From NCBI GenBank assembly GCA_905233915.1, contig CAJOFM010000003.1:1-64000 (forward strand): a stretch of 64,000 bases of DNA, written 5' to 3'. The DNA is from an uncultured Muribaculaceae bacterium. Lineage in GTDB: Bacteria; Bacteroidota; Bacteroidia; Bacteroidales; Muribaculaceae. The notes under the pieces were generated by a model that saw only the letters and a program-made list of their open reading frames with translations, was not told where the DNA came from and made no database searches. Below, one piece after another: positions 32,779 through 39,598 of this stretch (positions within the stretch are counted from its first letter, which is position 1; every line of letters begins with the position of its first letter). The position numbers and the translations under genes are program-made.

Positions 32779-32812
32779 AGCCCGCGACGATGATGCCGCG
32801 GGCTCTCTTTTA
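32779..32812. terminator. Bidirectional terminator between tatD and the M13 peptidase gene
   Basis: AGCCCGCG pairs perfectly with CGCGGGCT across a ten-base loop. On the plus strand CTCTTTTAT follows; on the minus strand ACTTTTAT follows. It separates two converging genes. Confidence 0.85.
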
Positions 32813-32828
32813 TGCTATTGATGGTAAA

Positions 32829-34853
32829 TTACCAGATGATAGCGCGGTCGGCGGGATCGAGCCACATCTTGTCACCAGCCTTGATGCCAAATGCGTCAAA
32901 GAAGGTGTCGATGTTCCTCAGCGTGGCGTTCACGCGGTAGCGGCCGATGGAGTGGGGATCACTCTTGGTCTGCTGGAAGATGGCCTCCTCGGTCATGTTG
33001 CCGGCCCAGATGCGGCCATAGCTCAGATAGAAGCGCTGAGCGGGAGTGAAACCGTCAATCTCCTTGCCCTCGCGGAACTGCTGTGTGGTGCGGAAAGCGT
33101 CATAGGCGATGCGCAGACCACCCTGGTCGGCGATGTTCTCACCCAGGGTCAGGTGGCCGTTGGCATGCTGGTCCTTAACCACAACAATCTCGTCGAACTG
33201 GGCAGCGAGCTTCTCGGCAGCCTCTTGGAACTGCTTGCTGTCCTCCTCGGTCCACCAGTCGGTCATGTTGCCGTACTGGTCGAACATGCGGCCCTGGTCG
33301 TCGAAGCCGTGGGTCATCTCGTGGCCGATAACCACACCGATAGCACCAAAGTTGGTGGCATCGTCAGCGTCCACATCAAAGAAAGGCGGTTGCAGGATAG
33401 CTGCAGGGAAGCAAATCTCGTTGGTGGTGGGGTTGTAGTAGGCGTTCACCGTCTGCGGTGTCATGCCCCATTCGTCCTTGTCAACGGGCTTGCCCATCTT
33501 GTCCAGGTTGCGGCGGGTCTCATACAGGCTGGCGGCCTTGATGTTGTCATACATGCTCTTGCTGGGGTCAACCTGCAAGCCGCTGTAGTCACGCCACTTG
33601 TCGGGATAACCGATCTTGACGGTGAAGGCGTTGAGCTTCACCAGGGCGTTGATCTTTGTCTGCTCGCTCATCCAGGTCAGGCCGGCAATGTGTGCCGCCA
33701 GCGATTTGCGCAGTTCGCCGATAAGCTTCATCATCTTCTCCTTGCTGCCATGAGCAAAGTACTTGTTGACGTAGATTTCACCCACAGCTTCACCCAGCAA
33801 TCCGTTGGGCAGACCCAGCGCGCGTTTCCAGCGGGGCTTGCGCTCCTTCTGTCCGCTCAGCATGCGGCCATAGAAGTCAAATGCTGCCTCGCCGAAGTCG
33901 TCGCTCAGGTAATTGGCGGCACTGCGGATGACCAGACCGGACATGTAGTCACGCATCTGCTGCTCGTTGAGCTTGGTCATCAGGTCGTTGGCTACGGCCA
34001 TCACCTTGGGCTGCGTCAGGATAACCCATTCCACAGTTGGAGTGCCCATCAGGTTGAAGTACTCCTTCCAGTTGATGGCGGGATAGTCGGCCTGCAGCTG
34101 GTCCAGGGTGCGGATGTTGTAGAGCTTGTTGTAGTCGCGTGCCTCGGCGCGGTCCATCTTGGCCTGGGCAAACTTGTACTCGATGTCATAGATGGTCTTG
34201 CAGGCACGGTTTGCCTCTTTCTTGCTGTAGCCGGCGAGCATGAACATCTTTACCAGGTAGTCCTTATAGGCCTGCTGGATCTTCTTGCTGTCGGCGTCGG
34301 TGTTCAGGTAGTAGTCCCTGTCAGGCAGGCCACTGGTACCGGCCTCGAGCCACATCACGTTCATGTCACTGTTCTTGAGGTCGGTTTCAACGCCGATGCC
34401 GAAGAACGGGTTGCTCAGCGTCAGGTGCTGGTCGGCAATGAACTTTGTCAGGTCTTTCTTCTTGAAAGTCTTGATTTTGGCAAGGTCACCCATCAGGGGC
34501 TGTGCGCCTTCGCGATTCAGGCGGTCACTGTCCATTGCCATCTTGTACAGGTCGGCAACTTTCTGGTCAACGGTGCCAAACTTGTGCTCAGTCTTGCCGA
34601 GTTCCAAGAACATGTCGCGCAGACGGTTCTCGTTCTCCTCGGCCAGTACGTTAAACGTACCGTAGGAAGCATACTCGGGATGCTTGCTCAGCGGATTGGC
34701 CTTCATCCAGCCACCACCTGCATACTCATAGAAATCCTCACCCGGCTTAACGCTCAGGTCCATGTCGGCACGGTTCACGCCGTGCGTCACTTGTGCCTGT
34801 ACACCAGGCACGGCAGCCATCATAATGGCCATAGCTAATAACATTTTTTTCAT
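32829..34853 (-). CDS. pepO: M13 family zinc metallopeptidase (PepO/neprilysin type)
   Basis: A signal peptide (KKMLLAMAIMMAAVPGVQAQ) precedes a 650-residue neprilysin-like enzyme. The zinc motif is VVIGHEMTHGFDDQG (HExxH near residue 510) with the third ligand in GENIADQGGLRIAYDAF, and the substrate-binding NAYYNPTTNEICFPAAILQPPFF is intact. It should cleave peptides in the periplasm. It is transcribed alone; a TACTTTTG -7 box lies at 34906-34899. Confidence 0.95.
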   Translation of the reverse strand: MKKMLLAMAIMMAAVPGVQAQVTHGVNRADMDLSVKPGEDFYEYAGGGWMKANPLSKHPEYASYGTFNVLAEENENRLRDMFLELGKTEHKFGTVDQKVADLYKMAMDSDRLNREGAQPLMGDLAKIKTFKKKDLTKFIADQHLTLSNPFFGIGVETDLKNSDMNVMWLEAGTSGLPDRDYYLNTDADSKKIQQAYKDYLVKMFMLAGYSKKEANRACKTIYDIEYKFAQAKMDRAEARDYNKLYNIRTLDQLQADYPAINWKEYFNLMGTPTVEWVILTQPKVMAVANDLMTKLNEQQMRDYMSGLVIRSAANYLSDDFGEAAFDFYGRMLSGQKERKPRWKRALGLPNGLLGEAVGEIYVNKYFAHGSKEKMMKLIGELRKSLAAHIAGLTWMSEQTKINALVKLNAFTVKIGYPDKWRDYSGLQVDPSKSMYDNIKAASLYETRRNLDKMGKPVDKDEWGMTPQTVNAYYNPTTNEICFPAAILQPPFFDVDADDATNFGAIGVVIGHEMTHGFDDQGRMFDQYGNMTDWWTEEDSKQFQEAAEKLAAQFDEIVVVKDQHANGHLTLGENIADQGGLRIAYDAFRTTQQFREGKEIDGFTPAQRFYLSYGRIWAGNMTEEAIFQQTKSDPHSIGRYRVNATLRNIDTFFDAFGIKAGDKMWLDPADRAIIW

Positions 34854-36715: not shown

Positions 36716-36730
36716 GTGTAAAAATTACAC
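36716..36730. promoter_or_regulatory. Operator site 1 (palindrome) upstream of the NrtR-type gene
   Basis: GTGTAAAAATTACAC is a perfect inverted repeat GTGTAA-N3-TTACAC. It ends five bases before the -33 box of the regulator's own promoter. Confidence 0.75.
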
Positions 36731-36735
36731 AAAAA

Positions 36736-36767
36736 TTTGGCGGTTTCAAAAATTGGCATTATTTTTG
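36736..36767 (+). promoter_or_regulatory. Promoter of the NrtR-type regulator gene
   Basis: TTTG at 36736-36739, 20 bases, then TATTTTTG at 36760-36767: an exact match to the Bacteroidetes promoter. The predicted start is near 36774, about 26 bases before the ATG. It lies between two operator-like sites. Confidence 0.8.
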
Positions 36768-36769
36768 CA

Positions 36770-36784
36770 GCGTAAAAAATACAC
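36770..36784. promoter_or_regulatory. Operator site 2, over the transcription start
   Basis: GCGTAAAAAATACAC differs from site 1 at two of 15 positions. It directly follows the -7 box, a position where a bound repressor would block initiation. Confidence 0.7.
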
Positions 36785-36799
36785 AAAGACTTTTTGGCG

Positions 36800-37531
36800 A
36801 TGAAGTACAACGAGCAAACAAAGCAATGGGAATCTCCCTTCTGGCATCCGGCGGTGACGACCGATTCGGTCGTGTTCGGCTTTGATGGAGAACAGTTGAA
36901 CGTGCTGCTTATCCAGCGCGGCCTGGAGCCTTACAAGAACATGTGGGCGCTGCCAGGCGGTTTCATGAGGCCCGAGGACAAGAGTGCCCATGATTGTGCC
37001 TACCGCGAGCTGCGCGAGGAGACCGATGTCCAAGACATCTACATGGATGAGTTGGGAACCTTCTCCAGTCATGACCGCGACCCGCGTGAACGCGTGATCA
37101 CGATTGCCTTTTTTGCCCTGGTCGTCAAGGACAAGTACCATGTCAAGGGCGGTGATGACGCAAGGGTAGCCAAGTGGTTCCCTGTCAAGGAATTGCCTGA
37201 ACTGGCCTTTGACCATAAGGCGATTATCGAGACGGCCCTCGAACGCTTGCGACAGCGCATTCATTTCGAGCCCATCGGTTTCTACCTGCTTGACAAAGAG
37301 TTCACGATGCCCCAGCTACATAATATATATATAGCGATACTTGATCCCCCCGAGGATGACACCAAATTGCGGGACCGAAGGAATTTCCCCAAGAAGATGT
37401 TGAAACTCGGCTACATCAAGGAAACAGGAAAGAAGGTGACGGGTAATCCACACCGGTCCCCAAAACTCTACACGTTTGATGAAGAAGCCTACAAGCAAGC
37501 CAAAAAGATAGGCATGCGATTGGAATTCTGA
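36800..37531 (+). CDS. NrtR-type regulator: Nudix-like domain plus winged helix
   Basis: Residues 1-140 are a Nudix-like domain (DSVVFGFDGEQLNVLLIQRG, MWALPGGFM). The Nudix box is altered: one extra residue lies between GGFM and REL, and the usual EETG reads EETD, so catalysis is doubtful. Residues 150-243 (FTMPQLHNIYIAIL to RNFPKKMLKLGYIKETG) are the NrtR-type winged helix. Such proteins sense ADP-ribose or sugar ligands; Bacteroides AraR is a relative. Two palindromes at its own promoter and two before the next unit suggest it represses both. Confidence 0.88.
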   Translation: MKYNEQTKQWESPFWHPAVTTDSVVFGFDGEQLNVLLIQRGLEPYKNMWALPGGFMRPEDKSAHDCAYRELREETDVQDIYMDELGTFSSHDRDPRERVITIAFFALVVKDKYHVKGGDDARVAKWFPVKELPELAFDHKAIIETALERLRQRIHFEPIGFYLLDKEFTMPQLHNIYIAILDPPEDDTKLRDRRNFPKKMLKLGYIKETGKKVTGNPHRSPKLYTFDEEAYKQAKKIGMRLEF

Positions 37532-37604
37532 TTTCATTTATCGGTAATATTTAACTCATAACCTCCCTTTTACAAGGGGAGAAAACTAGACAAAAACATT
37601 CATT

Positions 37605-37665
37605 GTGTAAAATTTACATAATGTAAATATAGCAGACTTTGAAATCCAATGTGTAAAAAATACAT
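37605..37665. promoter_or_regulatory. Operator sites 3 and 4 before the vWA unit
   Basis: GTGTAAAATTTACAT (37605-37619) and GTGTAAAAAATACAT (37651-37665) repeat the motif found at the regulator's promoter. Between them, ATGTAAATAT adds a further half site. They lie 44-104 bases upstream of the TATTTTTG box of this unit. Confidence 0.72.
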
Positions 37666-37708
37666 TTTGGCAAGGTTGCAGAAAATGAAGGTCTGTTAAA
37701 ATCCTAGT

Positions 37709-37716
37709 TATTTTTG
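37709..37716 (+). promoter_or_regulatory. -7 box of the vWA unit
   Basis: TATTTTTG matches the -7 consensus and shares TTATTTTTGCAGCGT with the regulator's promoter. No clear -33 TTTG is present at the right distance, so the promoter may need an activator or be weak. Confidence 0.6.
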
Positions 37717-37775
37717 CAGCGTCAACGGGAACAAAACAACAACAATTAATAACGTTTTTAAAAACTGTAATAACT

Positions 37776-38202
37776 ATGACTTATTCAATCAACGATCTGC
37801 TCCACGGAGCAAAGGTGATGTCACAGAGTGTGTTTGGCCGTCGTGATGAGTACCAACTTCAGTTCAACCACGAGGATGACAGGCGGTGGTATGTCGACTT
37901 CCCTGGATGGCCCTTCGATCATCACAACCTGATGATGGTGGCCGGTGCCGACAAACTGTGCGAGTTCTTGAGTGACGATGACAGGTTTGCCCACGTCAGT
38001 GTCATTCCCAGCAACAAGCCGCTCGACAAGCCTGGATGCTTGCCTGGTGCAGGGTCGCCATTCCCTGACTGGCGGTTCGTTCTACAATGTCACGGGCCTG
38101 GAGGGATTTGAGCGCGAGATCTGGCTCTGCCCCGTCACCCTGTTCGTGCTGGGCCGTTATCCCAAGTACATCTACATCAAGAAGACCAATCCGGCCGCAT
38201 GA
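37776..38202 (+). pseudogene. Small conserved-looking gene broken by a one-base frameshift
   Basis: The first frame reads TYSINDLLHGAKVMSQSVFG to SNKPLDKPG and then turns into non-protein-like sequence, stopping at 38111. From about 38035 the next frame continues convincingly (ACLVQGRHSLTGGSFYNVTG, EREIWLCPVTLFVLGRYPK) to a stop at 38202. Removing one G of the pair at 38034-38035 restores a 141-residue protein. I do not recognise the family. No slippery site is visible, so this is a mutation or a sequence error. It is the first gene of the vWA unit. Confidence 0.75.
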
Positions 38203-38272
38203 CCGATAGCAGTTTATCATCTCATAAAAGCATTAATCAACCTATTATCAACATTTTAATACATTATTGACT

Positions 38273-39394
38273 ATGAACAATCCGTTTAAGAACAAGCAGC
38301 GTGTGAGTGAAAAGACCGTTGACCCCAAGAAAGCGCAGATCCACAACCTCATCATTGTCGATGAAAGTGGCTCGATGGGTGGTCTGGAGAAGGTGACCAT
38401 CGGTGGTATCAACGAGACCATCGCCACCATCAAGAAGGCTCAGGAGGACTTTGCCGACACTCAGCAGCACTACCTCACGTTACTCACGTTTGACACTGGA
38501 GGCTATGGCCAGCCGCCCATTCGCCTGCACATGGCCGCCATGCCCATTGCCCAGGTCACTGATTTCAACGATTATCACCCCCGTGGCGGCACGCCGCTGT
38601 ATGACGCTATGGGCGAGTCGCTGACCCGATTGCACGAGCACATCAAGGACGACGAGAACGCTACCGCTGTGGTCACCATCATCACCGACGGCATGGAGAA
38701 CGCTTCCCGCAAGTGGACGGGTGAGGCTCTGCGCCATCTCATTGAGCAACTCAAGGAAGAGGGCTGGACCTTCTCCTACATGGGCTCGTGTCACGATGTG
38801 GTGGAGGTGACCATGAAGCTGTCCATCGACCATGTTATGGAGTTTGACCACGATGATGTGGGCGCTTCCAACACCTGGCACCGCGACAGCTCTTCCAAGC
38901 GCGCCTACTATGAACGCATGAACCGTGACTTTGACGCCATGGCCAGCCGCGAGAAGAAAATGGCCATGCGTCGCGCCAATGCCCGCGCTTACTATGCCGA
39001 CCGCATCACCCCCGACTGGATTGACCAGCTGGCTGAGGGCGAGGTGTTTGTCTTCGGCAGCGACCCTCAGGGAACCCATACAGGCGGTGCCGCTGCCCAC
39101 ACTGTGAAGCACTTCGGTGCCATCGTCGGCCAGGGCGAGGGAATGCAGGGGCAGAGTTATGCCATCCCCACTACTGGTGATTATGACTTGTTTGCCCAGG
39201 CTGTGCATCGCTTTATCGAATATGCTGCCCAGCACACCGACCAGCGTTTCCTGGTCACCCGCGTGGGGTGCGGTAACGCAGGCTATGACATGCGTGATGT
39301 GGCTTCCATGTTTGCCCATGCCATCAGGGTCGAGAACATCTGTCTACCCGAGGACTTCTGGGAAGTTTTGGGCCTCAAATTCTTCAAAAAATGA
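38273..39394 (+). CDS. von Willebrand factor A domain fused to a macro-like domain
   Basis: Residues 20-210 form a vWA domain with MIDAS motif DESGSM, GGTPLYD and ITDGMEN, so it should bind a divalent metal and a protein ligand. After a helical linker (KRAYYERMNRDFDAMASREKKMAMRR), residues 255-370 (EVFVFGSDPQGTHTGGAAAHTVKHFGAIVGQG, AIPTT, TRVGCGNAGYD) match the A1S_2505-like group of phage-linked proteins, related in pattern to macro domains that bind ADP-ribose. The ATG at 38273 is preferred to the TTG at 38267. The gene lies next to an NrtR-type regulator, which fits an ADP-ribose or NAD-linked role; this is inference. Confidence 0.82.
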   Translation: MNNPFKNKQRVSEKTVDPKKAQIHNLIIVDESGSMGGLEKVTIGGINETIATIKKAQEDFADTQQHYLTLLTFDTGGYGQPPIRLHMAAMPIAQVTDFNDYHPRGGTPLYDAMGESLTRLHEHIKDDENATAVVTIITDGMENASRKWTGEALRHLIEQLKEEGWTFSYMGSCHDVVEVTMKLSIDHVMEFDHDDVGASNTWHRDSSSKRAYYERMNRDFDAMASREKKMAMRRANARAYYADRITPDWIDQLAEGEVFVFGSDPQGTHTGGAAAHTVKHFGAIVGQGEGMQGQSYAIPTTGDYDLFAQAVHRFIEYAAQHTDQRFLVTRVGCGNAGYDMRDVASMFAHAIRVENICLPEDFWEVLGLKFFKK

Positions 39395-39485
39395 GCCATG
39401 AAGGAGGCCCTCAAGGTTACCAATAGTATTGAATAACTGTTTTACCCCACAAGACTGAAGAACACACCAACACACATTTATTGTG

Positions 39486-39524
39486 AGGATATGCCGGGAC
39501 TATCCGGCATGTCCTCCTTTTTTT
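39486..39524 (+). terminator. Terminator of the vWA unit
   Basis: AGGATATGCCGG pairs with TCCGGCATGTCCT (one G-T pair) over a short loop, and a run of T follows from 39518. It lies 92 bases past the vWA stop. Confidence 0.85.
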
Positions 39525-39565: not shown

Positions 39566-39598
39566 CAGTCATAGTTTGACATTTTAATGACGAGGACA

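Follow-up and report, generated by a model that had tools for sequence, protein, structure and literature searches.

ADP-ribosylation is a weapon of phages and bacterial competitors, and little is known of how bacteria detect and reverse it. Three families that reverse the modification have been described, macrodomains, ARH/DraG and NADAR (PMC11833690), and host systems centred on ARG that would counter viral ADP-ribosylation have been predicted (Iyer et al. 2022, PMC9503650, section 3.8), comprising ARG, a negative regulator of Nudix-helix-turn-helix type, phosphatases, a vWA chaperone and Macro/NADAR add-ons, with no coupled ADP-ribosyltransferase. Here we describe a module from an uncultured Muribaculaceae bacterium, found in the first 64,000 nucleotides of contig CAJOFM010000003.1 of assembly GCA_905233915.1 (the window), in which a predicted NrtR-type repressor with palindromic operators is followed by a gene whose product joins a vWA domain to a predicted ALC1-like macrodomain of the A1S_2505 family (A1S below). 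The module is probably a local branch of an ADP-ribose-inducible eraser regulon. What follows was obtained by computation: the operators, how they are conserved and how they go together with the regulator, the families to which the genes belong, and the fold predictions.

Operators and regulator across related genomes

An earlier note, made from the letters of the window, had placed four 15-bp sites at 36716, 36770, 37605 and 37651, and a pattern scan recovers all of them (Table 1); the consensus written in that note has 16 letters, a slip, with 0 matches within 3 mismatches, the sites being 15-mers. They are of the palindromic type GTGTAA-AAA-TTACAC. A search of the 64 kb with GTGTAAAWWTTACAC, allowing up to 3 mismatches, finds no site besides these four, which are confined to the module's two promoters as had been claimed, and operators 1 and 2 do flank an exact TTTG-N20-TATTTTTG promoter; a second TATTTTTG lies downstream of operators 3 and 4, where an exact TTTG at the standard spacing is absent. 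Because 7 of 100 shuffled windows equal the four-site count with the same pattern and threshold, the operator evidence from the window alone is weak, barely beyond chance. Over the 2.8-Mb genome a search for the 15-mer that tolerates up to 2 mismatches returns the four module sites and two others, one of them within a reading frame.

We compared 62 genomes of the same genus using the strict operator pattern GYGTAAWWWTTACRC, with the reversed pattern as control. The strict pattern occurs at 42 sites and the reversed one at 5, and 40 of the 42 belong to a fusion gene, a regulator operon, a stand-alone ARG gene or an A1S-DUF1810 gene, a comparison that settles the doubt left by the window. The two off-target sites, one beside a sigma-factor gene and one within an open reading frame, were taken as background, as were one-mismatch sites away from ADP-ribose genes, most of which fall in an open reading frame or next to an unrelated gene, their count being near that of the reversed control. 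On-target strict sites are present in 19 of the 31 genomes with a full-length regulator and in 0 of the 31 without, and the full-length vWA-A1S fusion (26 of 61 genomes) accompanies the regulator in 25 of 31 genomes, as against 1 of 30 lacking it (Fisher p 2e-10, uncorrected for relatedness). Orthologous loci carrying the palindromes, the lack of which the earlier note had named as counting against its proposal, were found in relatives, and in other genomes the regulator does occur together with the vWA-macro gene. Where no regulator is adjacent, operators are present at 14 of 21 close fusion loci, and their retention at fusion genes whose regulator lies elsewhere (most of L039-L051) points to a regulator acting in trans. 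Sites also stand at three stand-alone ARG genes and two A1S-DUF1810 genes.

Regulator operons of other genus members hold ARG (PF03747), NADAR (PF08719), SIR2, ARG-phosphatase-ARG, ARG-A1S, A1S-PARG or plain A1S, and elsewhere the operator precedes ARG, NADAR, sirtuin-macro, ARG-macro, PARG-macro and DUF1810-macro genes, with PARG (PF10021), PTP and NT5C also among the target domains. An operator placed at ARG, NADAR, macro/PARG and sirtuin genes implies a regulon that, as a whole, would reverse ADP-ribosylation, and the suggestion in the earlier note of an ADP-ribose-linked module is supported by neighbourhoods rich in ADP-ribose enzymes. Among PADLOC defence models the NADAR gene of one relative matches PDC-M42C; in the module itself just a weak match, of the regulator to PDC-S07, was obtained.

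The same neighbourhoods bear on a reading in which the regulator is a classical NrtR of NAD homeostasis, ADP-ribose being a signal of NAD turnover and the vWA-macro protein and ARG serving salvage or housekeeping with no role in conflict. The sirtuin within several operons, a conserved ADP-ribose pocket (see below) and the chromosomal stability of the locus in the window's clade, where dnaB and a glycoside hydrolase gene flank it, all speak for this reading. The strict operator was, however, not found at NAD biosynthesis genes, nearly all of its sites being at ADP-ribose eraser or reader genes, and the gene content is variable and reshuffled, with equivalent enzymes displaced, a trait of conflict systems (PMC9503650). 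We regard NAD homeostasis as a rather unlikely role.

From public genomes a scan retained 80 fusion loci, under Bacteroidales or broader uncultured metagenome-assembled genome titles together with one Lachnospiraceae, mostly from ruminant or horse gut. Among distant loci with full flanks (n = 34) the regulator is nearby in 30, ARG as well in 15, and a palindrome within one mismatch is found in 28; clusters of NrtR, vWA-macro and ARG genes thus occur in distant Bacteroidales, with ARG confirmed by Pfam in three of them. Of 78 non-redundant upstream regions from public Bacteroidales genomes, 35 hold exact sites, 48 in all, whereas control palindromes built from a permuted half-site average 0.14; the largest single control value, 21, most likely comes from a permutation whose degenerate position still permits GTGTAA. 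Upstream of the regulator a site within one mismatch is present in 35 of 37 of these regions. Operator copies in upstream regions favour spacings of 27, 50-57 and 65 bp, those in the window being 54 and 46 bp.

This distribution also bears on a phage origin, by which the module would be a domesticated or decaying prophage remnant, its vWA, A1S_2505, DUF6717 and Nudix-helix-turn-helix parts all having phage families. Every part does have PHROG matches, and separate vWA and regulator relatives are carried by phages, but no phage record reaches 80% coverage of the fusion protein, which is 70-88% identical and syntenic within the window's clade and widespread in Bacteroidales genomes. The sole full fusion on a viral contig lies, with its own regulator, at the end of an IMG/VR contig classed as viral and may represent host DNA beside a prophage. 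Such an origin seems to us extremely improbable.

Table 1. Coordinates of the module's features within the window
Feature	Position	Strand	Basis or remark
Operator 1, GTGTAAAAATTACAC	36716..36730	.	kept upstream of nrtR in relatives
-33 element TTTG, regulator promoter, Bacteroidetes-type	36736..36739	+	
-7 element TATTTTTG, regulator promoter	36760..36767	+	N20 from -33 element
Operator 2, GCGTAAAAAATACAC	36770..36784	.	54 bp from operator 1
NrtR-type predicted repressor, 243 aa, Nudix + NrtR winged helix	36800..37531	+	Pfam, residue alignment
Operator 3, GTGTAAAATTTACAT	37605..37619	.	pattern scan
Operator 4, GTGTAAAAAATACAT	37651..37665	.	46 bp from operator 3
-7-like element TATTTTTG, second promoter	37709..37716	+	
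DUF6717 gene, frameshift-split in this assembly	37776..38202	+	frames 37776-38111 and 37972-38202
vWA-macro fusion protein, 373 aa	38273..39394	+	
vWA domain	38273..38962	+	phrog_7371 match, MIDAS alignment, Foldseek
A1S_2505 domain, predicted to be a macrodomain of the ALC1-like class (TARG1/DarG/SCO6735-type) but lacking the TARG1 Lys/Asp pair	38978..39391	+	

Ligand pocket and the vWA-macro protein

Pfam matches to NUDIX (1.6e-19) and NrtR_WHD (5.3e-17) agree with the NrtR-type assignment of the earlier note, and among solved structures AraR of B. thetaiotaomicron is the nearest (E 8e-43), followed by 2fml and SoNrtR (3gz5). In SoNrtR ADP-ribose is contacted by Arg41 and Arg98, the second of these positions being Gly89 in AraR (PMC4666351, from which the contact residues were taken). 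The window regulator retains the contact residues R40, R93, R96 and H139; Arg occupies both SoNrtR positions (R40 and R96) in 81 of 81 homologues, and the shared Arg and His are also present in all 81. With Arg at both contact positions throughout, the alignment favours an effector of ADP-ribose type, and with Arg in place of the AraR glycine it makes sugar sensing, the other option given in the earlier note, look unlikely.

A sugar regulator would belong with the AraR/XylR-like proteins of the Bacteroidetes branch, respond to a pentose and govern carbohydrate genes in the vicinity, for example the glycoside hydrolase at 39587. The identity of the closest structure and the glycoside hydrolase gene that comes after the module, in the window as in most of the closest relatives, are in keeping with this, but to the pocket arginine must be added that the window scan found no operator upstream of the hydrolase, that AraR recognises a 21-bp semipalindrome (PMC4666351), and that elsewhere the neighbours of the regulator are ADP-ribose enzymes rather than sugar genes; we give this possibility very little credence.

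The Nudix box is impaired in known NrtR and AraR proteins (PMC4666351), and likewise in the window's clade (E to K and a one-residue insertion in the window regulator), whereas it is perfect in 48 of the 81 regulators. Since the known boxes are impaired, members with an intact one may be enzyme-regulators. A second Nudix protein (G000:C4:289931-290422), ~52% identical to the Nudix domain of the regulator, lacks the DNA-binding half, and most genomes of the genus have one such copy.

That the second product of the unit joins a vWA to a macro-like domain, as the earlier note had it, is borne out by structure prediction. The AlphaFold2 model of the fusion protein has a pLDDT of 91.7 and Foldseek assigns its N-terminal half as vWA, where the residues of the metal-ion-dependent adhesion site (MIDAS, DxSxS...T...D), D30, S32, S34, T107 and D139, are invariant across 24 homologues. 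The C-terminal domain belongs to A1S_2505 (NCBIfam NF049995, 9.4e-36), a family in which His34, Tyr61, Cys98 and Asn120 are invariant. When it is modelled alone (pLDDT 90.4) Foldseek returns TARG1 at the top (E 2.9e-4), then Bt 2fg1, viral and DarG macrodomains and 5e3b, with a probability of 1.00 for both TARG1 and DarG, and because of these matches the model indicates that 'macro-like' is right and that the class is ALC1-like. A PDB sequence search with the whole protein gave no significant match; at sequence level the A1S domain shows a hint of relationship with 5e3b, a macrodomain of S. coelicolor (E 0.37), similarity to ALC1-like macrodomains being otherwise below detection. At seven loci A1S is fused to PARG, ARG, DUF1810 or 5'-nucleotidase, which suggests a general ADP-ribose-linked module; the 5'-nucleotidase fusion matches the phosphatases of PMC9503650.

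The earlier note had proposed a two-gene unit, and this stands for the vWA/macro-like second product only. The first gene, DUF6717, is frameshifted here, the break consisting of a two-base gap (GG--ATGC in the alignment) and substitutions relative to four relatives, and reflects either a real pseudogene or an assembly error. Relatives such as L031, L032 and L038 have the gene whole, coding for 142 aa, and several others lack it. Since many relatives have a disrupted DUF6717 or none, the regulator and the vWA-macro gene in effect make up the unit. A literature search on the function of DUF6717 or A1S_2505 found nothing useful. Elsewhere in the window a long frame at 32790-34838 (+) lies antisense to a peptidase-like gene at 32829-34853 (-) and is probably an artefact of codon usage.

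A proposed ADP-ribose switch

We infer the repression, the ligand, the direction of induction, the substrate and the biological trigger of the proposed eraser regulon as follows. An NrtR-type dimer would bind the 15-bp palindromes and repress both the regulator promoter and the vWA-macro promoter, so that the default state is off. ADP-ribose or a close derivative, arising from ADP-ribosylation or NAD breakdown, would occupy the Nudix-like pocket, and the repressor would release the DNA. The induced vWA-macro protein would then recognise ADP-ribosylated molecules via its ALC1-like macrodomain, with the vWA domain binding the modified partner or handing it to hydrolases, and the protein may also take the modification off on its own, by a mechanism other than that of TARG1. 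In other genomes the same operator would turn on the ARG, NADAR, macro/PARG and sirtuin genes. The ADP-ribosylation that is reversed is probably foreign, the work of phage or competitor ADP-ribosyltransferases, and once it has been read and removed the inducer would drop and the system would shut off. That the operator stands, in related genomes, before genes of all three known eraser families suggests an inducible response, in repair or defence, to attack by ADP-ribosylation. More tentatively, and at slightly less than even chances, one ADP-ribose-sensing repressor and one operator might command a genome-wide reversal regulon in Bacteroidales, spanning macrodomain/PARG, ARH/ARG and NADAR enzymes plus the vWA-macrodomain adaptor, with the damage product as inducer and sensors with an intact Nudix box able to destroy that inducer and so reset the switch.

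Several observations weigh against the favoured account. The fold matches of the A1S domain are modest (best E 2.9e-4, TM about 0.6) and equivalents of the catalytic Lys84 and Asp125 of TARG1 are absent from it, as judged by the sequence motifs YAIPT-M/T and GCG-x-A, so that the domain could be a reader only; SCO6735 also lacks the Lys/Asp pair yet is active, depending on Gln85 and His24 (PMC9411070). The Fisher values overstate significance because related genomes are not independent samples. In one 97% complete genome (G010) the fusion gene has weakened sites and the regulator was not found, possibly a case of operator decay following regulator loss. Finally, the one ARG of the window's genome lies on a different contig with no operator near, and the regulon here may therefore amount to the module locus alone. 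Stand-alone vWA and A1S genes of this genome were considered as further members and rejected, operators being absent nearby. In favour of the account, DarT was not found in this genome and is present in only 4 of the 62 genus genomes, other ADP-ribosyltransferase families not having been searched.

With an operator and a sensor defined the idea is directly testable. Release of the regulator from DNA in an ADP-ribose-dependent manner offers an assay, and in gut Bacteroidales the operator and sensor could serve as a natural reporter of ADP-ribose stress. The operator alone predicts response genes of unknown function, vWA-A1S, A1S-DUF1810 and possibly DUF6717, and a likely function, ADP-ribose reading or removal, emerges for the large A1S_2505 family, named so far just as phage non-structural protein.

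Relation to described systems

Like the ARG-centred systems (PMC9503650), the module has a Nudix one-component regulator, the criterion there being Nudix or WYL, and a vWA domain, there a predicted chaperone. Those systems come from actinobacteria, planctomycetes and proteobacteria whereas ours is from Bacteroidales, and it differs from them in that the vWA is fused to an ALC1-like macrodomain, that ARG is often elsewhere (not beside the module in the window, and adjacent in the 15 of 34 distant loci noted above) and that a defined operator links dispersed genes. Because similar systems were predicted in other phyla, the Bacteroidales case is a variant of them; of the novelty that the earlier note had seen in the unit, the Bacteroidales setting, the vWA-macro fusion, the dispersed genes and the operator are new, while the general design, very similar to systems predicted in 2022, is not. 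A literature search, with most subscription journals outside its reach, found no paper on the operator or the regulon.

The regulator resembles SoNrtR of Shewanella (PDB 3gz5/3gz6/3gz8) in its Nudix and winged-helix architecture, its palindromic operators, the apparent autoregulation pattern and the positions aligned with the Arg41/Arg98 contacts, and as for NrtR regulators the palindromes lie, judging from sequence, at both its own and its target promoters. Known NrtRs control NAD biosynthesis or salvage; here strict operators are at eraser and reader genes and none was seen at NAD genes, and, unlike SoNrtR, many members, though not that of the window, keep an intact Nudix box. With AraR (BT0354, PDB 5bs6/5dd4/5ddg/5deq) of Bacteroides the regulator shares phylum and fold, AraR being the closest solved structure, but the glycine at residue 89 of the arabinose pocket is replaced by Arg96 in 81 of 81 regulators, and a 15-bp palindrome with no arabinose operon at the loci read takes the place of the 21-bp semipalindrome and arabinose genes (PMC4666351). 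The A1S domain, finally, is akin to TARG1, DarG, SCO6735 and Bt_1257 in its predicted fold and GCG loop, and to SCO6735 also in having no Lys/Asp pair (PMC9411070), and it is set apart from all four of these ALC1-like macrodomains by its fusion to vWA, ARG, PARG, NT5C or DUF1810.

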